From Jonquetella anthropi DSM 22815 (GTDB lineage: Bacteria; Synergistota; Synergistia; Synergistales; Dethiosulfovibrionaceae): a stretch of 64,000 bases of DNA. The stretch spans positions 481,010-545,009 of the forward strand of contig NZ_CM001376.1 in NCBI RefSeq assembly GCF_000237805.1, in the 5' to 3' direction. Positions 13,849 through 26,205 of this stretch are shown here, in pieces. The stretch's first letter is position 1, and each line of letters begins with the position of its first letter. Under the pieces are notes generated by a model, which was not told the origin of the DNA, did no database searches, and saw only the letters and a program-made list of their open reading frames with translations. Made by a program: the position numbers and the translations under genes.

Positions 13849-14442
13849 ATGACCAGAGTATCGTCTCGGGCAGAGCGGCATCAGAAGCTGCTGGATTTGC
13901 TGCGCCGCAGTCCGCTTTTCACAGACGAGGATCTGTCGGAGCTCCTGAACGTGAGCCTGAGCACCGTTCGGCTGGATAGGATCCTGCTCGGCGTGCCTGA
14001 AGTTCGGGAGCGGGCTCGTTCCATGGCGGAACAGGCGGTGAGCAGGCTTCGGTCACTGCGGGAGAACGAGTTTATCGGCCGGCTGCTGGAGCTGGAGCCG
14101 AACAGATTCGCCGTGTCAGAGCTCATTGCCGGGGCTGAAATGGCGTTTCGGCACACGGACCTGATTTGGGATCATTACATTTACGCTCAGGCAAGCGCTC
14201 TGGCAATTGCGGTTGTCGAAGCTGACTGGGTCATCGTCGGATCGGCCCGGGTGAGGTACCGGCTTCCGGCGAAAATCGGCGATCGGCTGATTGCCACGGC
14301 CAGAGTCGGCGTCCATAAAATGGGAAAGTACATTATCAGCGTCAGAACGGCTGTCGAGGGAAAAGAAATTTTCGTCGGCCGGTTCATAGCTGTGGCTCAC
14401 GACCCTCAAGGTTTACACCATGATGGAGGAGAAACGTTATGA
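13849..14442 (+). CDS. fapR: Fatty-acid and phospholipid biosynthesis regulator FapR
   Basis: This 197-residue repressor has an N-terminal DeoR-like helix-turn-helix (residues 1-65, with LSELLNVSLSTVRLDR) joined to a hot-dog acyl-CoA-thioesterase-like domain that senses malonyl-CoA in characterised relatives. ATG 13849 has a GGGGGG tract 8-10 bases upstream. It is the first gene of the lipid operon, and its stop overlaps the plsX start (ATGA), matching the fapR-plsX-fabD-fabG order of Firmicutes. It probably controls this operon. Confidence 0.93.
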   Translation: MTRVSSRAERHQKLLDLLRRSPLFTDEDLSELLNVSLSTVRLDRILLGVPEVRERARSMAEQAVSRLRSLRENEFIGRLLELEPNRFAVSELIAGAEMAFRHTDLIWDHYIYAQASALAIAVVEADWVIVGSARVRYRLPAKIGDRLIATARVGVHKMGKYIISVRTAVEGKEIFVGRFIAVAHDPQGLHHDGGETL

Positions 14443-15473
14443 TAATTGCCGTTGACGCGATGGGAGGGGACTACGGCCCGTCGGTTGTCTGTCCCGGCGT
14501 CCTGACCGCCTGCGAGCGTCATCAGGACTTGACCGTCGTTTTTGTGGGCGATCAGGAAAAAATCAAGCCGTATGTGGACGCTTCGGGCGCGGCCGGCAGA
14601 GTTTCGGTCGTCCATACGCTTGAAGCGGTAGGAATGGACGAGCACCCGTCTCAGGCGATACGGACAAAGCGCCGCTCCAGCCTTCGGCTGGCTATGGAGA
14701 TGGTTCGTTCCGGCGAGGCGGACGGGTGTCTGTCGGCCGGGAATACCGGGGCCATTGTGGCAGGCGGCGTGCTGGTGGTGGGTCGGATTCGGGGCATCGC
14801 GCGCCCGGGGTTGGGAGTTTTGCTGCCGACCCTCAAACCGACGCTGCTCATCGACGGCGGCGCGACGGTTCGGTGCAAGCCCGAGACGCTGTGTCAGTTC
14901 GCCCGAATGGGCTCGGCCTATATGACTTCTCAGATGGAGCTGAACGCGCCGCGGGTCTGCCTGCTGTCCAACGGCTCGGAGGAGATTAAAGGCGACGACG
15001 TCATCGCTTTGGCTCGCGAAGCCCTGTCGGCCGACAAGACGGTAAACTTCGGCGGGTACATCGAGCCCAACGAGGTCACGTTCGGCAAAGCCGACGTGGT
15101 GGTGGCCGACGGGTTCACCGGCAACATCATGCTGAAGTCCTTTGAAGGGCTGGTGTCTTACGGCATGCAGCTGATCAAGGACGAGGTGCTCTCAGGTCTC
15201 TTGGGGAAAATTGGGCTCGGACTGTGTTATTTTGGGGCCCGCCGCCTGAAGGCGAAGCTCGACTATCAGCGCTACGGCGGTTCGCCGCTGTTGGGCGTGG
15301 ACGGGGTCGTGGTGAAAGCCCACGGCCGGTCAAAGGCCCCGGCGATCACCAGCGCGATGGACGCGGCGGTTCGGGCTGTTCAGGGGGATATTGTGGGCGT
15401 CATTCGGCGCAGGGCCGGATCGGACGCTTCGGACGAAGCAGATAGGACGAAAGAGAGGCTGGAGGCCGAATGA
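14439..15473 (+). CDS. plsX: Phosphate acyltransferase PlsX
   Basis: This is a 344-residue peripheral membrane enzyme that makes acyl-phosphate from acyl-ACP for PlsY-type glycerol-3-phosphate acylation. The N-terminus MIIAVDAMGGDYGP is diagnostic, and SAGNTGA and DGFTGNI are conserved pieces. It overlaps fapR by four bases and the next gene by four. The partner PlsY is encoded at 51359-51967 in this window. Confidence 0.96.
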   Translation: MIIAVDAMGGDYGPSVVCPGVLTACERHQDLTVVFVGDQEKIKPYVDASGAAGRVSVVHTLEAVGMDEHPSQAIRTKRRSSLRLAMEMVRSGEADGCLSAGNTGAIVAGGVLVVGRIRGIARPGLGVLLPTLKPTLLIDGGATVRCKPETLCQFARMGSAYMTSQMELNAPRVCLLSNGSEEIKGDDVIALAREALSADKTVNFGGYIEPNEVTFGKADVVVADGFTGNIMLKSFEGLVSYGMQLIKDEVLSGLLGKIGLGLCYFGARRLKAKLDYQRYGGSPLLGVDGVVVKAHGRSKAPAITSAMDAAVRAVQGDIVGVIRRRAGSDASDEADRTKERLEAE

Positions 15474-16423
15474 TCGGAGAGAGACTGACGAAGCTTTTGG
15501 GAATTAAATATCCTGTTATCCAAGGCGCCATGGCCTGGGTGGCCAACGCGGAGCTGGCAGCCGGCGTGAGCAACGGCGGCGGGTTGGGAATTATCGCTGC
15601 CGGCGCGACGCCGCCGGAAATTCTGGAACAGGAACTCATCAAGGTGAGAAAGCTCACCGACAAGCCGTTTGGGCTGAACATCATGCTGATGTCCCCGACG
15701 GCCGACGACGCGCTGGAACTGGCGGCTCTTCACCGCGTGCCGATCGTCACCACCGGCGCCGGATCGCCCGGCAAGGTGCTCGAGCGCCTCAAGCCGCTGG
15801 GAACGATCGTCATGCCGGTCGTTCCGACTGGGACTCTGGCCCGGCGGGTGGAGAAGCAGGGCGCCGACGCGGTGATCGCCGAGGGTATGGAAGCCGGCGG
15901 CCACATCGGCGAGCTGACGTCCATGGTGCTGACCCCGATGGTCGTCCGCGCCGTCTCCATTCCTGTCGTCTGCGCCGGCGGAATTGCCGACGGGGCCGGA
16001 ATGGCCGCGGCGTTCGCCTTGGGCGCGTCAGGCGTCCAGCTTGGAACGCGTTTTGTCTGCTGCGACGAGTGCACCGCTCACCCGGCGTTTAAAGAGGCGT
16101 TCGTCAAGTCCCGGGAGCGGGCCACCGAGGTGACTGGGCAGAGCACAGGGCATCCCGTTCGGTGCATTAAGAACAAACTGACCCAGGCGTTTCAGAAAAT
16201 GGAGTTTGACCACGCGCCGGTTGAGGACCTTGAGAAGTTCGGTACCGGCCGGCTTCGGGCGGCCGTTGTGGACGGCGACGTGGTGATGGGGTCGGTAATG
16301 GCCGGCCAGTCCGCCGCCCTCGTGAACGATATCCTTCCCGCGGCTCAGATCATCTCCCAGATGACGCGGGAGGCCCAGCAGATCTTGTCGTCCCTTGGGA
16401 CGGCAGTTTCGGAGGTGGAATAG
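15470..16423 (+). CDS. fabK: FMN-dependent enoyl-ACP reductase II
   Basis: This 317-residue flavoprotein is of the FabK/nitronate monooxygenase fold. It opens with LLGIKYPVIQGAMAWVA and carries the FMN-phosphate-binding region around CAGGIADGAGMAAAFALGASGVQLGTRF. In relatives it catalyses the last, NADH-dependent step of each elongation cycle. Its place directly before fabD and fabG supports FabK rather than a nitronate monooxygenase. No FabI is seen in this operon, so FabK may be the main reductase. Confidence 0.93.
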   Translation: MIGERLTKLLGIKYPVIQGAMAWVANAELAAGVSNGGGLGIIAAGATPPEILEQELIKVRKLTDKPFGLNIMLMSPTADDALELAALHRVPIVTTGAGSPGKVLERLKPLGTIVMPVVPTGTLARRVEKQGADAVIAEGMEAGGHIGELTSMVLTPMVVRAVSIPVVCAGGIADGAGMAAAFALGASGVQLGTRFVCCDECTAHPAFKEAFVKSRERATEVTGQSTGHPVRCIKNKLTQAFQKMEFDHAPVEDLEKFGTGRLRAAVVDGDVVMGSVMAGQSAALVNDILPAAQIISQMTREAQQILSSLGTAVSEVE

Positions 16424-17377
16424 ATGAAATACGCGCTGATATTCCCGGGGCAGGGTTCGCAGAACGTCGGCATGGGCTCCGACCTGTGCGGGACGTATCC
16501 GGCAGCAAAGGCGGCGTTCAGCGAGGCCGATAACGCGCTGGGCTTTAAGCTCAGCGACATCATCTTCAACGGTCCGGAGGAGCGTCTGACCCTGACGGCT
16601 TACACCCAGCCGGCTATTCTCGTCACGAGCATCGCCCTTTACCGGGCTCTGACCGTCGACTGCGGCGTCAAACTGTCGCCCGAGTGCGTCGCCGGCCACA
16701 GTCTGGGCGAGTACACGGCCCTTGTGGCGAGCGGCGTCCTGTCGCTGGCCGACGGGGTACGGCTGGTTCACAGCCGCGGCTCGTTCATGCAGGAAGCGGC
16801 TCCCGAAGGGCAGGGAGCCATGGCCGCCATTATGGGCATGGACCCGGATCAGGTGGAGATCATCTGCTCAGAGGTCGGGAAAGCGTCGGTCTGCGAGCCG
16901 GCGAACTACAACACGCCTGTTCAGTTGGTCATTTCCGGCGAAACGGAAGCCGTCAAGCGGGCCGCCGATCTGGCGACGCAGCGGGGCGCCCGTCGGGCCG
17001 TCATGCTCAACGTCAGCGCGCCGTTCCACTGCTCTCTGATGCGGCCTGTGGCCGATCGGCTAGCCGAGTCCATGAAGGCCTGCACGTGGAATCAGGGGGC
17101 GTTTCCTCTGGTGGCCAACGTGTCCGGTCAGCTGGTCAGCTCTGTTTCGGATATCCGGGACGGGCTGTACGAGCAGACCTACAGCCCGGTTCAGTGGGTT
17201 AAGTCGGTCCGAACCATGTGCGGCTTAGGCGTCAGCCGGTTTGTCGAGATCGGCCCCGGCAAGGTCCTTTCTGGGATGATCAAGAAAATTCAGAAGGACG
17301 CTTCCTGCCTGTCAGTCGAAACCGCCGGAGACCTGAGCCGGGTCGCTGAGTTCGTCGCGTCGGAGGATCAGGAGTGA
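16424..17377 (+). CDS. fabD: Malonyl-CoA:ACP transacylase
   Basis: This 317-residue enzyme transfers malonyl from CoA to ACP. The N-terminal FPGQGSQNVGMG and the catalytic serine in GHSLGEYTAL (about residue 90) are clear, and the catalytic His lies in SAPFHCSLM. It starts one base after the fabK stop and overlaps fabG by four bases. Confidence 0.97.
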   Translation: MKYALIFPGQGSQNVGMGSDLCGTYPAAKAAFSEADNALGFKLSDIIFNGPEERLTLTAYTQPAILVTSIALYRALTVDCGVKLSPECVAGHSLGEYTALVASGVLSLADGVRLVHSRGSFMQEAAPEGQGAMAAIMGMDPDQVEIICSEVGKASVCEPANYNTPVQLVISGETEAVKRAADLATQRGARRAVMLNVSAPFHCSLMRPVADRLAESMKACTWNQGAFPLVANVSGQLVSSVSDIRDGLYEQTYSPVQWVKSVRTMCGLGVSRFVEIGPGKVLSGMIKKIQKDASCLSVETAGDLSRVAEFVASEDQE

Positions 17378-18111
17378 GCCGTCTGGCTCTGGTCACAGGA
17401 GCCGGACGCGGCATAGGCAGGGCCATCGCTTTGCGTTTGGCCCAGGACGGCTGCCGGATCGCCCTTCATTATCGGTCGTCTGCAGCCGGCGCCGAAGAAA
17501 CGGCTCAGCAGATTCGCACATCCGGCGGCGAAGCGGAGATTTTCGGCGCCGACCTGACCGATTCGTCTCAGGTTGCCGAGATGTTCGGCCTGATCAAGTC
17601 GCGGATGGGCAGCCCTGAAATTCTGGTCAACAACGCCGGCGCGACGAAGGACGGATTAGTGATGCGCATGAGGGACGAGGACTGGAAAACGGTCCTTGAC
17701 GCGGACCTGACGTCGGTGTTTTACTGTACGAGAGAAGCCCTCAAGGGCATGACGAAGGCGCGGTGGGGTCGGGTCGTGACGATTACGTCCGTCGTCGGGC
17801 TGGCCGGCAACGCCGGGCAGGCCAACTACGCGGCGGCCAAGGCTGGGGCCATCGGGCTCACCCGTTCCGCGGCGCGGGAGTACGGCGGCCGGAACGTGAC
17901 GTTCAACTGCGTGGCGCCCGGGTTTATCGAGACGGACATGACCGCCGGCCTGTCGCAGGAACTCAAGGATCAAATGCTGGCGAGCACGCCGCTTGGCCGG
18001 GCAGGTCAGCCGGAGGACGTCGCGTCTGCTGTGGCGTTTCTCGTCTCAGACGCGGCGGCGTTTATCACAGGGCAAGTCTTAGCCGTTAACGGCGGCATGA
18101 CGATGCAATAA
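17374..18111 (+). CDS. fabG: 3-oxoacyl-ACP reductase
   Basis: This 245-residue short-chain dehydrogenase has the NADP-binding TGAGRGIG at residues 8-15, NNAG near residue 88, a catalytic serine in ITSVVG and the active-site pair in YAAAKAG. The GTG start overlaps the fabD stop. It performs the first reduction of each fatty-acid elongation cycle on ACP-bound substrates made by FabD and FabF. Confidence 0.96.
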
Positions 18112-18148
18112 ACAAGTTCATCACCCTTCCTTGAAAGGAGGTGGAACC

Positions 18149-18400
18149 ATGACTCGAGAAGAAGTATTCGCAAAACTGAAGGAGATCATCATCGACCGTC
18201 TTGACGTCGACGAGGAGCAGATCAAGCCCGAGGCCTCGTTCGTAGAGGATCTGGGGGCTGACTCCCTTGACATTGTCGAGCTCATCATGGGCATCGAAGA
18301 GGAATTCGACATCGAGATCCCGGACGAAGACGCTGAGAAGCTCACGTCCGTCGGCGAGGCTATCAACTACGCCTGTGAAAAGCTGGGAATCGAAGGCTAG
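18149..18400 (+). CDS. acpP: Acyl carrier protein
   Basis: This is an 83-residue acidic carrier protein. The phosphopantetheine-attachment serine is in the motif [10 protein letters not shown] at about residue 37. ATG 18149 is preceded by a very strong AAAGGAGGTGG, fitting high expression. A hairpin follows the gene at 18421-18445. Confidence 0.97.
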
Positions 18401-18420
18401 CCTTGCTCCAGCCGCATTTC

Positions 18421-18445
18421 AGGGGAGGCCCTGAGGGCCTCCCCT
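18421..18445 (+). other. Perfect intercistronic hairpin between acpP and fabF
   Basis: AGGGGAGGCCC (18421-18431), a TGA loop and GGGCCTCCCCT (18435-18445) form an 11-bp perfect stem. There is no T tract behind it, so it is more likely a 3' stabiliser or processing element for the abundant acpP message than a full terminator. Confidence 0.65.
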
Positions 18446-18535
18446 GTATTCGACGGCAAACTGTGTCCTTTTTCCCCGCAGGGGAGAACCCGGCGGGCTA
18501 GGTTTACATTTGACTCCGCGAGAGGAGTGAATTCA

Positions 18536-19777
18536 GTGACCATCACTGAACGGAAGGTAGCTATTACCGGACTGGGCGTCGTGAGCCCAATCGGCAGTGG
18601 CAAAAACAATTACTGGCGGGCTCTTGAAGCGGGGACGAACGGCGTCGGGCCGATTACCGCCTTCGACGCGTCCGAGTTCCCCGTACGAATTGCCGCTGAA
18701 GTGAAAGACTTTAATCCTGAAGACTATATGCCCCGAAAGGAAGCCAAACGGGCCGATCGGGCCATTCAGTTCGCCGTCGCGGCCAGTCAGATGGCCATGG
18801 ACGATGCGGGGCTTGCCGCTGGATCGGTGGATCCCTATCGTTTCGGCGTGTACATCGGTTCCGGGCAGGGCGGAATTTCCACCTGCTTCGAGAACTTCCA
18901 GACTCTCATCACCGCCGGACACCGGCGGGTCAGCCCGTTCTTCATCCCCATGATGATCACCAACATGGCGGCGGCGTACGTGGCAATTCAGCAGAAAGCG
19001 AAGGGCCCGTGCTTCTGCGTCGTTACGGCCTGCGCGACCGGCGTGAACAACATCGGCGAGGCGGCTCGGGCTATCAGCCGGGGCGACGCTGACGTCATGC
19101 TGGCGGGCGGCACCGAAGCGGCGGTGTGCAGTATTTGTGTGGCCGGTTTTGCGGCCATGAAGGCCCTTTCCACCCGCAACGACGAGCCGGGCCGGGCTTC
19201 CCGTCCTTTTGACCGGGATCGGGACGGTTTCGTCGTCGGCGAGGGCGCCGGCGTGCTCGTCTTGGAGGATATGGAGCGGGCGCGGGCGCGGGGCGCTCAC
19301 ATTTACGGCGAAATCAGAGGGTACGGCAGTTCCTGTGACGCCAGTCATATTACCGCACCCGACCCGAACGGCGAAGGCGCAGCCCGGGCCATGCAGATGG
19401 CGGTGGAAGAAGCCGGCTGGGATCGAGTCGACCTGATCAACGCTCACGGCACGTCGACCGGTCTCAACGACGTGATGGAGTCTCAAGCGATCAACCGGGT
19501 ATTCGGCGCCGCGGCGCCCGATATCCTCGTGAACTCCACCAAGTCGATGATCGGCCACGGCTTGGGCGCGGCCGGCGGCATGGAGACCGTCGCCGCCATT
19601 CAGTCTTTGGAGGAAGGAATCATTCACCGAACGCTGAACTTGGAAAATCAGGACCCGGAGTGTAACGTCACCGTGGTCAAGGAGACGCTTCGCCGGCCGG
19701 TTGACCGTGTTCTCGTCAACAGCTTCGGCTTTGGCGGACACAACGCCGTCATCGCGATCGAAAAATGCAGGAGCTAA
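18536..19777 (+). CDS. fabF: 3-oxoacyl-ACP synthase II
   Basis: This 413-residue condensing enzyme has its catalytic Cys in VVTACATGVNNIG, His in NAHGTSTGLND and His/Lys in STKSMIGHGLGAAGG. GTG 18536 was preferred over GTG 18527 because AGAGGAG lies 8 bases upstream of it. Its 3' end overlaps the start of rnc by 13 bases. It elongates acyl-ACP with malonyl-ACP in the cytosol. Confidence 0.96.
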   Translation: MTITERKVAITGLGVVSPIGSGKNNYWRALEAGTNGVGPITAFDASEFPVRIAAEVKDFNPEDYMPRKEAKRADRAIQFAVAASQMAMDDAGLAAGSVDPYRFGVYIGSGQGGISTCFENFQTLITAGHRRVSPFFIPMMITNMAAAYVAIQQKAKGPCFCVVTACATGVNNIGEAARAISRGDADVMLAGGTEAAVCSICVAGFAAMKALSTRNDEPGRASRPFDRDRDGFVVGEGAGVLVLEDMERARARGAHIYGEIRGYGSSCDASHITAPDPNGEGAARAMQMAVEEAGWDRVDLINAHGTSTGLNDVMESQAINRVFGAAAPDILVNSTKSMIGHGLGAAGGMETVAAIQSLEEGIIHRTLNLENQDPECNVTVVKETLRRPVDRVLVNSFGFGGHNAVIAIEKCRS

Positions 19778-20484
19778 TAGCCGGCAGGACAAGCCGAGCT
19801 CAAGACCTGAGCGCTTTTCAAAAGCGCTCAGGTCTTGTTTTTCGTGACCCCGCACTGCTGGACTTAGCTCTGACTCACCGGTCGTTTGCCGCCGAGCGGG
19901 GCGGGGGAGACAACCAGCGTCTGGAATTTCTCGGCGACGCGCTGATCGAAGGGGCCGTCAGCGCCGAGTTGTTTTGCTCCCGCACGAACGACGACGAGGG
20001 GAAACTGACGAGGCGGCGCGCCCGGCTCGTCTGCCAAAAGTCTTTGGCCCGCTGCGCCGATAAGCTGGGCTTAGGGGAACTGCTGCGGCGTGGGCGGGGA
20101 CAGACGGAGGCGACCGAGGCCATGAAGGCGGACGCCTTTGAGGCCTTGGCTGCGGCGCTCTACTTGGACGGCGGCGCCGAAGCGATGCGCGGCTTGGTGG
20201 ACTTGATCCTGTCCGAGCCGCTCGCGCCTCTGGACGCGAAGACCCTGCTGTGCCAGTGGGGCGCCTCCTGCAGGGTAACGGTGACTTTCGAGGAGACGGG
20301 ACGAACCGGCCCGGATCACGAGCCTCACTTCTTCGTCCGCGTTCAGGCCGGCAGCGAGACGGCCTGCGGCGAAGGGCCGAGCCGGCTGGCGGCTGAGCAG
20401 GACGCTGCGGGGAAGGTCATCCGGTCTCTTGAAGAGCGGGGAGAGTGCGCAATCGGTTGTCCAACTGAGGCGGAGTTGTTATAA
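19765..20484 (+). CDS. rnc: Ribonuclease III
   Basis: This 239-residue dsRNA endonuclease has an N-terminal RNase III domain with the signature NQRLEFLGDAL (about residues 49-59) and the second acidic cluster in KADAFEALAAALYLDGG. A C-terminal dsRNA-binding domain follows (about residues 165-230). ATG 19765 lies inside the end of fabF. Alignment by eye of AFQKRSGLVFRDPALLDLALTHRSF to the usual N-terminus means residues 13-25 belong to the protein, yet their codons form a perfect terminator-like hairpin (19801-19842). The last codons contain the promoter of the pyr operon. Confidence 0.93.
   Translation: MQELIAGRTSRAQDLSAFQKRSGLVFRDPALLDLALTHRSFAAERGGGDNQRLEFLGDALIEGAVSAELFCSRTNDDEGKLTRRRARLVCQKSLARCADKLGLGELLRRGRGQTEATEAMKADAFEALAAALYLDGGAEAMRGLVDLILSEPLAPLDAKTLLCQWGASCRVTVTFEETGRTGPDHEPHFFVRVQAGSETACGEGPSRLAAEQDAAGKVIRSLEERGECAIGCPTEAELL
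19801..19842 (+). terminator. Perfect intrinsic terminator embedded in the 5' coding region of rnc
   Basis: CAAGACCTGAGCGCTTTT (19801-19818) and its exact complement (19820-19837) surround a single C, and TTTTT follows at 19838-19842. This looks like a textbook terminator of the lipid operon, and it is also an 18-bp RNase III-like duplex, lying within codons 13-26 of rnc. Confidence 0.85.
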
Positions 20485-20485
20485 T
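20457..20485 (+). promoter_or_regulatory. Promoter of the pyrimidine operon
   Basis: TTGTCC (20457-20462), a 17-base spacer and a perfect TATAAT (20480-20485) overlap the end of rnc. Transcription would begin near 20492, leaving only about 30 bases of leader before pyrC. That is too short for the classical PyrR attenuator. Confidence 0.82.
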
Positions 20486-20521
20486 CGGCCGAAAGCGTTT
20501 GAGTCTGAAAGGCGGTGCGTC

Positions 20522-21835
20522 ATGAAGACGTTATTCTGCAACTGCCGTTTGGTCGATCCGTCCCAAGGTTTGGACGGGCCGGGCGCCCTGCTGGCCGAAG
20601 ACGGCGTTATTCTTTGGAGCGGTTCTCAGATCCCGGAAGGAACAGAAGCCCACAGGACAATTGACTGCGGCGGCTGTGTCCTCGCGCCGGGGCTGATAGA
20701 CCTGCACGTCCATTTCAGGGAGCCGGGACAGACTCATAAGGAGACTTTGGCGACAGGCTGTCAGGCCGCCGCTGCCGGCGGGTACACGGCGGTCGTCACC
20801 ATGGCCAACACGACGCCGCCGATCGACAGCTCGGAGATGGTTCGCTGGACGCTCCGAAACGCCCAGCCGCTGGACTGCCGAATCTTTCCCGCGGCCGCAG
20901 TGACCCGGGGCATGAAGGGGCAGGAGCTGACCGACTTTCGCGCTCTGGCTGAAGCTGGAGCCAGCTGCCTGACCGACGACGGGCTGATGGTGGCCCGAAA
21001 CGACGTGGCGTTTGCCGCTTTCAAGGAGGCGGCTGCTCTGGGCCTCGCCGTGAGCATTCACCCGGAGACGCCCGGCCTTGGCGGCGACCGGTCGGTCAAT
21101 CAGGGGGACGTGTCGCGCCGATTCGGGCTGGAAGGCGTCCCGCCGGCAGGGGAAGAGACCGGCATCGCCCGGGACATCGTGCTGGCCGAAGCGGCCGGCG
21201 CTCACCTGCACGTTCAGCACGTGTCGACCGCCCGGGGCGTGGCGCTGATCGCCTGGGCGAAGTCCCGGGGGGCCCATGTCACGGCCGAGGCGACGCCACA
21301 CCACATCAGCCTGACGGAAGAGCGGGTCCTGCGATGCGGCGCGAACGCGAAAATGAGCCCGCCCCTTCGGACGGAGGCGGACAGACTGGCTGTCGAGACG
21401 GGACTTCTGGACGGCACGCTGGACGTGATCGCCACGGACCACGCGCCCCACTCGCCGGAGGAAAAAGCGCAGGGACTAGCGAAAGCGCCGAACGGCGTCG
21501 TCGGCTTGGAGACGGCTCTGGCCGTCTGCTTGACCGAACTGTCGGCTAGCCCGCGGTTTTCTCTCCCGCTTTTGATCGACCGAATGAGCTGTCGTCCCGC
21601 TGCTGTTCTCGGCCTTCCGGGCGGCACGCTGAAAAGCGGCTCGCCGGCCGACCTCGTCGTCTTTGACCCGAAAGAGCGGTGGACCGTCGATGCAAGCCGT
21701 TTTCGCTCAAAGGGGCGCAACACGCCGTGGGACGGAGAAACTCTGATTGGACGGGTCAAGCTGACCGTTCTTGGCGGTCGGTTCACGTGGCGCGACATGG
21801 ACGACGCCCGGTTCGCCGGACTGCAGGAGGCGTGA
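20522..21835 (+). CDS. pyrC: Dihydroorotase
   Basis: This is a 437-residue amidohydrolase of the type I/III class. The zinc-binding HxH is in DLHVHFREPGQ near residue 62, further His ligands lie in SIHPE and LHVQHVSTA, and the catalytic Asp is in IATDHAPHS. It cyclises carbamoyl-aspartate to dihydroorotate. ATG 20522 was chosen for its GGCGGTG Shine-Dalgarno and family length; an in-frame upstream extension would run back into rnc. It is the first gene of pyrC-R-K-D-F-E. Confidence 0.95.
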   Translation: MKTLFCNCRLVDPSQGLDGPGALLAEDGVILWSGSQIPEGTEAHRTIDCGGCVLAPGLIDLHVHFREPGQTHKETLATGCQAAAAGGYTAVVTMANTTPPIDSSEMVRWTLRNAQPLDCRIFPAAAVTRGMKGQELTDFRALAEAGASCLTDDGLMVARNDVAFAAFKEAAALGLAVSIHPETPGLGGDRSVNQGDVSRRFGLEGVPPAGEETGIARDIVLAEAAGAHLHVQHVSTARGVALIAWAKSRGAHVTAEATPHHISLTEERVLRCGANAKMSPPLRTEADRLAVETGLLDGTLDVIATDHAPHSPEEKAQGLAKAPNGVVGLETALAVCLTELSASPRFSLPLLIDRMSCRPAAVLGLPGGTLKSGSPADLVVFDPKERWTVDASRFRSKGRNTPWDGETLIGRVKLTVLGGRFTWRDMDDARFAGLQEA

Positions 21836-21838
21836 GCT

Positions 21839-22450
21839 TTGCGGGAAAAACGGACGATCATGGACGGCGCTCACATCGAGCGGGCCCTGCGCCGGGTTGC
21901 CGACGAGATACTAGAACACAACGGCGGAGCCGCCGGGCTGATGCTTTTGGGCATTCAGCGCCGAGGCGTTTACTTGGCTAACCGGCTGGCAGACCTGCTT
22001 CAGAACGCCGAAAAGGTGAAGGTCCCTAAAGGGCAGCTGGACATCACGCTGTACCGGGACGATCTGACGCTGCTGAGCGACGAGCCGATAGTTCACAGCA
22101 CGTCCCTGCCCGGCGACGTGACGGGGCAGAAGATCATTCTGGTTGACGACGTGCTCTATACCGGCCGGACGATTCGGGCAGCGCTTGACGCCCTGACCGA
22201 TCTGGGGCGTCCCGCGTCGGTACAGCTGGTCGTGCTGGTGGACCGGGGACATAGGGAGCTGCCGATTCAGCCGGATTTTCTGGGCCGACGGGTGCCTACG
22301 GCTTTAAGCGAGACCGTGGAAGTGAGGCTCAGCGAGTTGGACGGCGAGGATCGGGTGGTCATTTGCCAAGCGGGGGAGCTCAGGAGGGGAACAGGGGATG
22401 ACGAAGGACTGGATAGGCACGCTGAGGGCTCAGGAGCAGATAGGCCCTGA
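21839..22450 (+). CDS. pyrR: PyrR bifunctional pyrimidine regulator / uracil phosphoribosyltransferase-like
   Basis: This 203-residue type I PRTase has the PRPP-binding loop ILVDDVLYTGRTIRAALD near residue 100. In characterised relatives it binds pyr mRNA in response to UMP and has weak uracil phosphoribosyltransferase activity. The start is TTG 21839, with AGGAGG about 9 bases upstream. The C-terminus is about 20 residues longer than usual and overlaps pyrK by 53 bases; the extra tail (rich in Gly, Asp and Arg) may be incidental. Confidence 0.93.
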   Translation: MREKRTIMDGAHIERALRRVADEILEHNGGAAGLMLLGIQRRGVYLANRLADLLQNAEKVKVPKGQLDITLYRDDLTLLSDEPIVHSTSLPGDVTGQKIILVDDVLYTGRTIRAALDALTDLGRPASVQLVVLVDRGHRELPIQPDFLGRRVPTALSETVEVRLSELDGEDRVVICQAGELRRGTGDDEGLDRHAEGSGADRP

Positions 22451-23156
22451 CCTTTACGCTGCAGTTGTAGAGTGCGCTCCCGTGGCGCGGCAGGCCCAGC
22501 CCGGGCAGTTCGTGCTGGTCTCGCCGGGGGACCGCAGCCTGCGTCTGCTGAGGCCGCTTGGAATCAGCGGCACGAGCGGCGACATGTTTGAGATGATCTA
22601 TCGAAAAGTCGGGCGGGGAACCGAGCTGATGACCCGTTGGCAGCCCGGAACGGAATTCCTGTTCCGAGGGCCGGCAGGCGGGGCGTTCAGTCGGCCGACT
22701 GGCCCGGCGATAGCGGTTGCCGGGACGCTGGGCGTGGCGCCGCTCCTTTTTGCCCGGCAGGTCTTCGGTCCGTTTGAGAAAATGTTTCTCGGCGTGCCGA
22801 ACGGCTCTTGGGAGCCGTTCGCCCGCTGGGTCGCGGGCAGGGCGGGCGAGACGGAGCTTTACTGCGACACCGGGGAAATCGGCTTGAAAGGGTTCTGCAC
22901 TCAAGGGCTCGACGGCTTAGACCTGAGTGGCCGGTCAGTACTGGCCTGCGGGCCGAACCCGATGCTTGCGGCGCTGTACCGCCGCTGGGGCGGGACTGTG
23001 AGCGACATGCAGGTCAGCTTGGAAAAACGGATGGGCTGCGGCATGGGCGGGTGCTTCGGCTGCGTCGTCAGCCTTAAAACCGGGCGTCGGCGTCTCTGCA
23101 TCGACGGGCCGGTCTTTCAGGCGAAGGAGGTGGACTGGGATGAGCTCCATCTCTAA
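22398..23156 (+). CDS. pyrK: Dihydroorotate dehydrogenase electron-transfer subunit
   Basis: This 252-residue FAD and [2Fe-2S] subunit connects PyrDB to NAD. An N-terminal ferredoxin-reductase-like FAD domain contains RPLGIS. The C-terminal iron-sulfur ligands lie in the cluster CGMGGCFGC plus a later Cys in RRLCIDGP. The ATG lies inside the tail of pyrR with AGGAGGGGA upstream. It overlaps pyrD by 17 bases. Confidence 0.95.
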   Translation: MTKDWIGTLRAQEQIGPDLYAAVVECAPVARQAQPGQFVLVSPGDRSLRLLRPLGISGTSGDMFEMIYRKVGRGTELMTRWQPGTEFLFRGPAGGAFSRPTGPAIAVAGTLGVAPLLFARQVFGPFEKMFLGVPNGSWEPFARWVAGRAGETELYCDTGEIGLKGFCTQGLDGLDLSGRSVLACGPNPMLAALYRRWGGTVSDMQVSLEKRMGCGMGGCFGCVVSLKTGRRRLCIDGPVFQAKEVDWDELHL

Positions 23157-24093
23157 GTTGACGTGTCACGTCGGCGGGCTGGATCTGACCTCGCCGCTCG
23201 TCATCGCCTCGGGCATATGGCCGTACGAAAAAGAGTACTGGGCCGGCGAGTACCTCGACTTTGCCGGGGCCGTGTGCTCCAAGGCCATCACGGCCGATCC
23301 GCGGCCGGGCAACCCCGGAACGCGGGTATGGGAAACGCCCTGCGGCATGCTGAACAGCATCGGTCTTCAAAACGAGGGCGCCGGGTCGTTTTTCGGCGGC
23401 ACGCTGGGCCGGCTCAGAAGCTACGGGAAGCCCCTTCTGCTGAACGTCTCGATGGAAAGCTCTTCCGACTTGGAACGGATATTGGACGCCATGGAGCCAG
23501 TCGCGCCGTCGGTTGACTGCGTGGAGCTGAACGTGTCCTGTCCTAACGTCGATCAAGGCTGCATGAGCTGGGGCGTGGATCCTGCCCTGACGGCCCAAGC
23601 GGTTCAGCAGGTCCGCCGCCGGTGGAGCGGCCCGCTGTGGGTTAAGCTGACCCCGCAGGCGCCCGATCCGTGCGCCGTGGCCAAGGCCGCCCAGGACGCG
23701 GGGGCCAGCGCTCTTGTCGTCGCCAACACGTGGTTGGGAGCTGCAATCGACACGGTCAAAGCCCGTCCGGCTTTTGACCGGGTTGTGGCGGGACTTTCCG
23801 GCCCGGCGATTTTCCCCTTGGCCCTTCGGATGGTTTGGCAAGTCTGCGGCGCCGTGGATATTCCCGTCGTGGGCTGCGGCGGCGTCGCCTCGGCTGACTC
23901 GGCCGTTGCCATGCTGATGGCCGGCGCGGCGGCGGTCGAAGTGGGGATGGCGCTTTTTTCCGATTTCAGCGTCTTAGAGCGCATCGCCCGAGGGCTTGAA
24001 GAGGAAGTATCCCGCCGAGGTTTTCAATCAGTCGGCGAGTTGGTCGGTCTGGCGAGGCCTGACCGGGATTTACAGGAGAGGATGAGACGATGA
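23140..24093 (+). CDS. pyrD: Dihydroorotate dehydrogenase (NAD-dependent class 1B), catalytic subunit
   Basis: This 317-residue FMN TIM-barrel enzyme has substrate contacts in NSIGLQNEG and the active-site Cys in ELNVSCPNVDQG; the FMN phosphate site is near VGCGGVASADSAVAMLMAGA. Pairing with pyrK identifies it as class 1B, which uses NAD and suits an anaerobe. It overlaps pyrF by four bases. Confidence 0.95.
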   Translation: MSSISKLTCHVGGLDLTSPLVIASGIWPYEKEYWAGEYLDFAGAVCSKAITADPRPGNPGTRVWETPCGMLNSIGLQNEGAGSFFGGTLGRLRSYGKPLLLNVSMESSSDLERILDAMEPVAPSVDCVELNVSCPNVDQGCMSWGVDPALTAQAVQQVRRRWSGPLWVKLTPQAPDPCAVAKAAQDAGASALVVANTWLGAAIDTVKARPAFDRVVAGLSGPAIFPLALRMVWQVCGAVDIPVVGCGGVASADSAVAMLMAGAAAVEVGMALFSDFSVLERIARGLEEEVSRRGFQSVGELVGLARPDRDLQERMRR

Positions 24094-24806
24094 CAGAGAA
24101 AGACCTGCCGCTTTTTGCCGCTCTGGACCTTGACACCCTCAAGGAGGCCCGACAGACTGTTGACCGTTTGGCCGGGCTGGTCCGGGGAATCAAGATCGGG
24201 CCGAGACTGTACTCTCTGGGAGGACGCCCTTTCATCGACGAGATCGTTGACCGGGGCTTTGACCTGTTTCTCGACCTGAAGCTTCACGACATTCCCAACA
24301 CCGTTCGGCTGGCGATCGAGGCCTTGGCCGACGCCGGGCTGTGGTGCGTGACGGTTCACGGCGCCGGCGGACGGCGCATGCTGGAAGAAGCTGTGGCCGC
24401 CCGAAACGCCCGAGGCTCGTCGATGAAGATCTTGGCGATCACCGTCCTGACCAGCTTCTCGGAGGAAAGTTGGTCGGAGGTGGCTCCCGGAACGTCCATC
24501 GAAGCGGCGATCCGAGCCAGAGCGAAGCTCTGCGACGATACGGGGCTTGACGGACTCGTCTGCTCGCCGCTCGACCTGCCGATCGTAAAAAGCTGCACGT
24601 CGCCTCGGTTGCTGAAAGTCGTCCCGGGCGTCCGTCTGGCTGCGGCAGGGGACGACCAGACGCGGGTTGCCACGCCGAAAGACGCGATTATCGCCGGGGC
24701 AGATTATCTGGTCATGGGTCGTCCGATCTACAAAGCAAAAGATCTGGAAGGCGCGATGGATGCAATCAAACAGTCCATACAGGAGGGATTATCATGTCGG
24801 GTCTGA
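24090..24806 (+). CDS. pyrF: Orotidine 5'-phosphate decarboxylase
   Basis: This 238-residue TIM-barrel enzyme carries the catalytic Asp/Lys/Asp tetrad region in FLDLKLHDIPNT (about residues 58-69). The phosphate-binding end is around VVPGVRL and YLVMGRPI. It makes UMP from OMP. It overlaps both pyrD (4 bases) and pyrE (13 bases). Confidence 0.96.
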   Translation: MTEKDLPLFAALDLDTLKEARQTVDRLAGLVRGIKIGPRLYSLGGRPFIDEIVDRGFDLFLDLKLHDIPNTVRLAIEALADAGLWCVTVHGAGGRRMLEEAVAARNARGSSMKILAITVLTSFSEESWSEVAPGTSIEAAIRARAKLCDDTGLDGLVCSPLDLPIVKSCTSPRLLKVVPGVRLAAAGDDQTRVATPKDAIIAGADYLVMGRPIYKAKDLEGAMDAIKQSIQEGLSCRV

Positions 24807-25384
24807 CCGTAGAAGAGCAGATTAAATCAATGATGATCGAGAGCGGCGCGTGGCTTCAAGGGCATTTCCGGCTCACGTCGGGCCGCCACAGCGGCAACTA
24901 CATGCAGTGCGCCATGATGCTCCGCTACCCCAAAAAGGCCGCGTTCGCCGGCGCGGAGCTGGCCAAGCTGCTTCGGCCTTTGGAGCCGGATTTCATCGTC
25001 TCTCCTGCTCTTGGCGGGTTGATCATCGGTCACGAAGTGGCTCGGGCGCTTGACGTTCCGTTTTTGTTCTGCGAGCGCGAGGCGGGAGCCATGCGGCTGC
25101 GGAGGTTCCCGGCGCCGGAGGGTAAAAAGTTCGTGGTCGTCGAGGACGTCATCACGACCGGCGGCTCGCTTAAGGAAACGGCCGTTCACGTGGCATCGCT
25201 CGGGTGCCGCTGGGTCGGCTCGGCCTGCATCGTCGACCGCAGCGGCGGCGACAACGTCATCGGCCCGTCGCTCATCTCGCTGATGAAAATTTCGTTCCCG
25301 ACCTACGAGGAAAGCGAGTGCCCTCTTTGCGCTTCACTGGGAACGCCGCCTGTGAAACCGGGGAGCAGAGACCTGTCCAAATGA
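24794..25384 (+). CDS. pyrE: Orotate phosphoribosyltransferase
   Basis: This 196-residue PRTase has the substrate loop SGRHSGNYMQC and the PRPP motif VVVEDVITTGGS. It makes OMP from orotate. The C-terminal part contains a CPLC pair not needed for catalysis. Its stop overlaps the ATG of the next gene. Confidence 0.95.
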   Translation: MSGLTVEEQIKSMMIESGAWLQGHFRLTSGRHSGNYMQCAMMLRYPKKAAFAGAELAKLLRPLEPDFIVSPALGGLIIGHEVARALDVPFLFCEREAGAMRLRRFPAPEGKKFVVVEDVITTGGSLKETAVHVASLGCRWVGSACIVDRSGGDNVIGPSLISLMKISFPTYEESECPLCASLGTPPVKPGSRDLSK

Positions 25385-26205
25385 GGCGCGGCGCCGCCCG
25401 GAGCGCCGCGGTTCTAGCGCTGGGCCTGTGCCTTGCGGTCAGCTCTGCCGCTTGCGCCGCCTCGTTTGACCTGATGACAACTGACCCGTGGCTTGGAAGC
25501 ATCGGCGCGTTTTTGGGCGGGACGTACCTGCCGGTGGCGCCGATCACGCCGTGGCAGGTCGACGGCAAAACCGAAAAGCACCGCTGGGACGGCAAAACGC
25601 CCCTGTTGGCTCTCGACGTGGCGCAGGCGAAGCGGTTCCGTCTGGTTGGACGGGACGGGAGACTCCTGCCTCACGTGTCGGTTCTGTACGACGAGCGCCC
25701 TCAGACCGACGGTCAGCCTGACGAAGTCTTTTACCTCGATCCGGCTCGGCTGCCGTACGTGGCCCAGAAGGTCATGACCGTCGCCGCGTCGCTCCAGCCG
25801 AAGCACTATTCGTTTTTTCAGCGCCGGCTCGCCGAGTTCGAGTCCCGGCTCAACAGCACGATCCTGTCGGGCCGGCAGCAGCTGAGCGGCCGAAGGTTCT
25901 GGGAACTTGGCGGGTGTCTGTCCGTGTTCTGGCAGGCGTTGGGCTGTCAGGTAGAAAAAAGCGGCGCGGAAGCCAAGGCGGAGGTGCAGCACTGGCTGTC
26001 CCTGCCCGATTCGCTTCGCCGCAAAACCTCGCCGCCATGGAAAGGCGCCACGCTCATCGTCGACTGGACCGTGTCGGACTCGTTGGCCCGGTCGCTTCGC
26101 GGCGCGCCCGGCGTCGCGTTCATCGATCCGCCGGTGGGGCCCCAGCCGCTGTTTGCCCTGCACGACACGTTTCTCAAGCTGGGACAGGAGCGCCCGTGCC
26201 CGTAA
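25381..26205 (+). CDS. Secreted metal-binding (ZnuA/TroA-like) protein, divergent
   Basis: The protein is 274 residues. ATG 25381 overlaps the pyrE stop (ATGA), which decides the start. A signal sequence with a hydrophobic core (residues 8-22) and Cys residues near its end (SAACAAS) suggests export, possibly as a lipoprotein. The middle segment YLDPARLPYVAQKVMTVAAS resembles the linker-helix region of zinc/manganese ABC binding proteins (a DP followed by a long helix). The His ligands usual in that family are not evident, and no permease or ATPase is adjacent. The function is unknown; co-transcription with pyr genes is its only context. Confidence 0.55.
   Translation: MRRGAARSAAVLALGLCLAVSSAACAASFDLMTTDPWLGSIGAFLGGTYLPVAPITPWQVDGKTEKHRWDGKTPLLALDVAQAKRFRLVGRDGRLLPHVSVLYDERPQTDGQPDEVFYLDPARLPYVAQKVMTVAASLQPKHYSFFQRRLAEFESRLNSTILSGRQQLSGRRFWELGGCLSVFWQALGCQVEKSGAEAKAEVQHWLSLPDSLRRKTSPPWKGATLIVDWTVSDSLARSLRGAPGVAFIDPPVGPQPLFALHDTFLKLGQERPCP

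Follow-up and report, generated by a model that had tools for sequence, protein, structure and literature searches.

The window analysed here, a 64,000-nt stretch of the Jonquetella anthropi DSM 22815 genome, carries a series of fab genes that ends in fabF and is followed directly by rnc, the gene for RNase III (Table 1). The identities of fabF, rnc and the dihydroorotase gene downstream were tested against protein families, and the names of the remaining fab genes are putative, based on their sequence. The rnc frame scored 161.3 bits against TIGR02191, slightly below the cut-off of 166.25, and exceeded the cut-offs of the Pfam RNase III and dsRNA-binding models. Comparison with 115 homologues (35 loci of the phylum and 80 named loci of other taxa) revealed the acidic positions E54, D58, E78, D123 and E126 to be kept in at least 108, and the glutamine at position 51 to be common (60/115). 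As the gene is of full length, possesses the conserved acidic positions and shares Q51 with many homologues, a broken rnc was rejected.

Table 1 Features of the fabF–rnc junction (positions in the window)
Feature	Position	Strand	Remark
fabF	18527..19777	+	TIGR03150 at 576.8 bits, above cut-off
rnc (RNase III, 239 aa)	19765..20484	+	shares 13 nt with the end of fabF if the start is ATG 19765
AGGAG, Shine-Dalgarno-like	19769..19773	+	3′ of ATG 19765 and 5′ of ATA 19777–19779
Hairpin, left arm	19801..19818	+	codons 13–18 of rnc; inverted-repeat search
Hairpin, right arm	19820..19837	+	codes for S22 and L24, both unusual
T-tract (TTTTT)	19838..19842	+	immediately 3′ of the stem; rnc codons 25–26, GTT TTT
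Promoter-like site	20457..20485	+	at the 3′ end of rnc, ahead of the dihydroorotase gene (which starts at about 20522); consensus scan, 10/12 matches, which is not evidence of function

The translation start of rnc looks weak, because no Shine-Dalgarno sequence was found 5′ of ATG 19765, which lies inside fabF, because the triplet behind the AGGAG element is an ATA, and because fabF ends in two stops (TAA 19775–19777, followed in frame by TAG 19778–19780). The ATA, positioned near the ATG start of the rnc genes of genus g3, is a possible alternative, non-standard start.

Within the first rnc codons, the first-pass annotation had described an 18-bp perfect inverted repeat around one base, followed by TTTTT and covering codons 13–26, and this description proved exact: two 18-nt arms, 100% complementary and separated by 1 nt, begin 23 nt past the fabF stop. 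In RNA form, the hairpin comprises 17 bp (nine of them G-C) and a 3-nt loop, with a predicted energy of –28.9 kcal/mol when folded alone; the 96-nt stretch 19765–19860 reached –45.4 kcal/mol (z –5.17), and none of 200 shuffled versions folded as well. A stem containing G and C, a short loop and a U-tract directly 3′ of the stem are thus all present, as in an intrinsic terminator. A terminator scan of positions 14000–26000 returned 11 sites compared to 11.2 in shuffled sequence, the rnc site being the only one with more than nine pairs. Since the flank on the opposite strand is not T-rich, the signal could serve only transcripts of the plus strand, i.e. those of the fab genes. Rfam, applied at gathering thresholds, gave five matches across the window, all of them away from the hairpin. 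Another perfect hairpin, of 12 bp and without a T-tract, is located at 18420–18446 between an acyl-carrier-like gene and fabF.

That the hairpin codons fit the RNase III N-terminus, as also noted in the first-pass annotation, was borne out by the alignment, in which L15, G23 and F26 correspond to residues of helix 1 in the homologues; for the same reason, an rnc start 3′ of the hairpin was rejected. By comparison, S22 and L24, both encoded by the right arm, were each found in one of the 115 homologues and in none of 143 phylum loci, where position 22 is leucine or isoleucine in 133 and position 24 tyrosine in 134.

To put the repeat into perspective, a simple base-composition estimate predicts about 8.5e-5 stems of this kind for the 385,005 nt of coding sequence. 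With the RNase III protein fixed and codons drawn as they are used in the sampled genes, a perfect 18-bp stem has a probability of 2.9e-8; in 20,000 synonymous draws of the rnc codons, stems reached 13 bp at most. The hairpin is neither a product of chance nor forced by the amino acids. In a sample of 464 kb from the 1,676-kb genome (the window and 20 stretches of 20 kb, with genes called by our own codon-statistics script), 58 perfect stems of at least 12 bp were counted, comprising 53 intergenic, three partly overlapping a gene and two wholly inside one. Of the 48 stems of at least 13 bp, the rnc stem alone lies wholly inside a called gene. The other in-gene stem of at least 12 bp in the sample (L123:1124–1150, minus strand; 12 bp, then TTTT) lies in a gene that, judged by its sequence, is probably murE-like. 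Perfect inverted repeats within coding sequence have also been described for nematomorph mitochondria; those, however, are numerous, belong to animal mitochondria and are not known to have been given the form of terminators (PMC6649704). A mobile or repeated palindrome was rejected: no further copy of a hairpin arm with fewer than three mismatches was found in the genome, the five places with three mismatches equal the five obtained for a reversed control pattern, and the hairpins of other lineages, described below, are confined to rnc, with a single place in each genome apart from two contigs in G115.

Relatives within the family are distant, the nearest rnc genes being 46–48% identical, and the search returned no second genome of the window's genus. 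Among 12 family rnc loci (genera g2 and g3), none possesses a perfect junction stem of at least 8 bp; the stem therefore arose in the window's lineage or was lost in the others. It is also absent from most of the phylum. As the best relative reaches only 48% and a second genome of the genus is missing from the comparison, the family result shows a lineage-specific hairpin rather than a lack of function. In all six g3 genomes (L016–L021), an additional RNase III-like match was obtained, the open frames being 261–674 aa long.

A lineage-specific perfect palindrome might also be a mutational accident: one arm would be a template-switch copy of the other, tolerated by the gene and of no regulatory use. 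Template switches can make perfect stems (PMC8794818), and perfect pairing around one central base would fit such an event. Against the six g3 loci, the right arm matches at fewer bases (8–9 of 18) than the left (9–12 of 18), a weak fit to copying from left to right, but the difference is small, amounting to one base in three of the six loci. The T-tract, moreover, is no copy of the left flank, and unrelated hairpins recur at the same junction, codon-conserved in two other lineages (see below). We regard an accident of this kind as rather improbable.

Recurrence of hairpins at the fabF–rnc junction adds to what had been noted for this locus before. The phylum set consisted of 144 rnc junctions (the window, the 35 loci above and 108 further ones) from 151 genomes with an rnc match, seven of which were not taken. 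No RNase III match to the window query was obtained in 15 of 166 genomes; these include all six g5 genomes (G022–G027), for which divergence and absence are not distinguished. The 108 loci were anchored by a profile and the nearest F or W, with a few anchors (L218, L220) that look shifted. A fabF-like end precedes rnc at 122 of the 144 junctions. Stems of at least 11 bp were detected in 10 of 143 120-nt tiles over the rnc start, the window included, but in none of 801 control tiles (0/324 from the rnc interior and 0/477 from fabF). The contrast shrinks at lower thresholds, with 10/143 junction, 1/324 interior and 0/477 fabF tiles at a minimum of 10 bp and 13/143, 10/324 and 5/477, respectively, at a minimum of 8 bp. 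Outside rnc, the window's genome has four in-gene stems of at least 11 bp (385.0 kb of coding sequence), a second genome (G123) has two (155.9 kb) and a third (G153) has four (177.3 kb), densities from which about 0.2–0.4 such stems would be expected in 143 tiles.

The ten junction stems fall into four non-homologous groups: the window; g33, g35 and g45; g47; and, doubtfully, g19. The stem thresholds were chosen after the window had been seen, and relatedness makes the genomes non-independent, so it is safer to speak of three or four groups among 50 genera. In g19, the stem (L162) probably reflects a coincidence of codons in an LLEEAL stretch, its three siblings differing by one or two bases, and stems of 7–8 bp near TTTT in g51 and g52 are too short to claim. 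Scans that were not restricted to long perfect stems showed no contrast of this kind: best local folding energies were similar for junction tiles and controls, and a terminator scan allowing wobble pairs gave 10/143 junction, 13/324 rnc-interior and 2/477 fabF hits, so that no proportional excess over the rnc interior is claimed. There may be a weak tendency to junction stems outside the phylum, as judged from 80 named loci of other taxa (at least 11 bp, 1/80 junctions vs. 0/348 interior tiles; at least 10 bp, 3/80 vs. 1/348). The sole locus with at least 11 bp among these 80 belongs to a Christensenella MAG (L062), whose perfect stem of 12 bp lies at the start of the rnc coding sequence.

In g33, g35 and g45 (five genomes), the hairpin lies in the first rnc codons, 14–22 nt past the fabF stop; with g1 included, the distance from that stop to the stem is 14–23 nt. 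In the three g47 genomes it likewise occupies the first rnc codons, starts 54–56 nt past the fabF stop and is followed by TTTTAATT. Stems of both lineages measure 11–12 bp and are unrelated in sequence to the window hairpin. Just 3′ of the rnc hairpin in g35 and g45, a run of eight A (CAA AAA AAA) was observed (L141, L154, L171).

In all 13 pairs compared within the g33/g35/g45 and g47 groups, those hairpin codons that keep their amino acid are identical, compared to 47–66% codon identity in the rest of rnc. Examples are L148 and L180 (8/8 hairpin codons; 42/80 in the rest of rnc) and L131 and L141 (8/8; 37/72). Across the three g47 genomes, the two longest runs of identical codons are the hairpin and the T-rich tail, with one loop codon between them. 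Out of 40,000 synonymous draws each, the observed stem was reached in 26 for g47, 3 for g33, 27 for g35 and 62 for g45. In these two lineages the hairpins are thus seen, at the codon level, to be conserved beyond the protein. Comparison with relatives, which had been proposed earlier as a check on function, therefore has two sides: pairing is absent while the protein is kept in 12/12 family loci, the kind of outcome that had been named as refuting, whereas the unrelated hairpins of two other lineages are conserved beyond the protein.

At 19 loci fabF ends at least 85 nt before the anchor. Here, folding revealed strong, mutually different hairpins in the fabF–rnc gap of all four g16 loci, an observation made after the fact; the hairpin of L139 has a T-rich tail, and three of the four lack a T-run directly after the stem. 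No perfect stem of at least 9 bp was found among the 15 long-gap loci outside g16. Common to these lineages is a hairpin at the end of fabF, which occupies the gap in g16 and the first codons of rnc wherever the two genes touch or overlap. As the simplest reading across lineages, it would be a 3′-end signal of the fab mRNA, with rnc left to read-through.

For the window, we favor with moderate confidence a hairpin that acts as the 3′-end signal of the fab mRNA, i.e. an intrinsic terminator serving as an attenuator that lowers rnc expression and is relieved by translation. As fabF and rnc overlap, with no intergenic space to hold it, the signal would be written into the first rnc codons. On its way out of fabF, RNA polymerase would encounter the hairpin and U-tract 23–65 nt beyond the fabF stop. 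Unless a ribosome is on rnc, most transcripts would end near 19842, yielding fab mRNA with a stable 3′ hairpin. From the weak rnc start, probably coupled to termination on fabF, a ribosome that initiates and reaches the left arm in time would permit read-through, and RNase III would be kept at a low level tied to translation. Termination, its efficiency, the relief by ribosomes and the low RNase III level are inferred. The hairpin lies within a translated frame (codons 13–26), and the residues around it align to the homologues.

The form of a terminator is found in the window and in g47. In g33, g35 and g45, the tail after the stem is TTTC or TTC, which is poor for a terminator, so that a hairpin protecting or slowing is as likely there. 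Applied to all lineages, this alternative holds that the hairpin shields processed fab mRNA at its 3′ end, or slows translation early in rnc, with no termination of transcription. It fits every lineage, and both the conserved g33/g35/g45 hairpin without a good U-tract and the three g16 gap hairpins without a T-run right after the stem favor it. Yet it has no need of a T-tract, and TTTTT abuts the window stem as TTTTAATT abuts that of g47, codon-identical in 3/3 genomes. We consider it unlikely for the window.

Of the combined attenuation and autoregulation put forward in the first-pass annotation, attenuation remains the best reading. Autoregulation, in which excess enzyme would cut the duplex in its own message, is weakly supported, and so is the related view of the duplex as an apparent RNase III target. 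The duplex does lie in rnc, but its stem has 17–18 bp here and 11–12 bp in the other lineages, lengths that are short for RNase III, and the T-tract is left unexplained. Self-regulation as such has precedents: in S. aureus and Streptomyces it operates through the coding sequence, in E. coli through the 5′ leader (PMC3386247, PMC8708148, PMC10126417). The enzyme's self-cleavage sites, which lie in the coding region in S. aureus and S. coelicolor and in the 5′ leader (rncO) in E. coli, have in common with the window's hairpin that they are hairpins in the rnc message (PMC3386247). If cleaved, the window's hairpin would differ in that its stem is short and perfect, carries a U-tract and sits at the very beginning of rnc, next to fabF; in S. 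aureus, by contrast, the site is placed in a long irregular helix near +296, not at the start (PMC3386247). Among staphylococci the autoregulatory structure is described as conserved (PMC3386247), whereas the window's is found in 0/12 family loci and the hairpins of other lineages are unrelated. Short stems and a T-tract that cleavage does not need thus rank autoregulation below attenuation, and we deem it improbable.

Embedded as it is in the first codons of rnc, such a terminator/attenuator would be a variant of a kind already known. The rpsU-dnaG-rpoD operon of E. coli contains an intergenic terminator ahead of the gene for a low-abundance protein. The rnc terminator would likewise be internal to an operon, but inside the conserved coding sequence of the downstream gene rather than between genes. 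A further related system is the pyrBI leader (pyrL) of E. coli, where ribosomes can prevent intrinsic termination: the terminator hairpin overlaps a translated frame, and a close ribosome prevents termination (PMC5021804). The frame at rnc, however, encodes the regulated enzyme itself and not a leader peptide, and relief by ribosomes there is putative. No ribosome-pausing signal was found at the rnc hairpin in the comparison with pyrL. The literature searched, mostly without subscription papers, yielded no report of a terminator within rnc.

More tentatively, lineages of the phylum may have independently evolved a coding-embedded control hairpin at the fabF–rnc junction, a dual-coding terminator that would set RNase III abundance, with selection replacing conserved helix-1 residues and RNase III cleavage of the read-through message possibly adding feedback. 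If true, a conserved coding sequence can conceal a terminator, for which the protein pays a price, and operon annotation would call for caution, as terminator searches limited to intergenic space would miss such sites. The same solution for scarce RNase III after fab genes would then have arisen more than once, giving a natural series in which transcription-translation coupling and dual coding could be tested.
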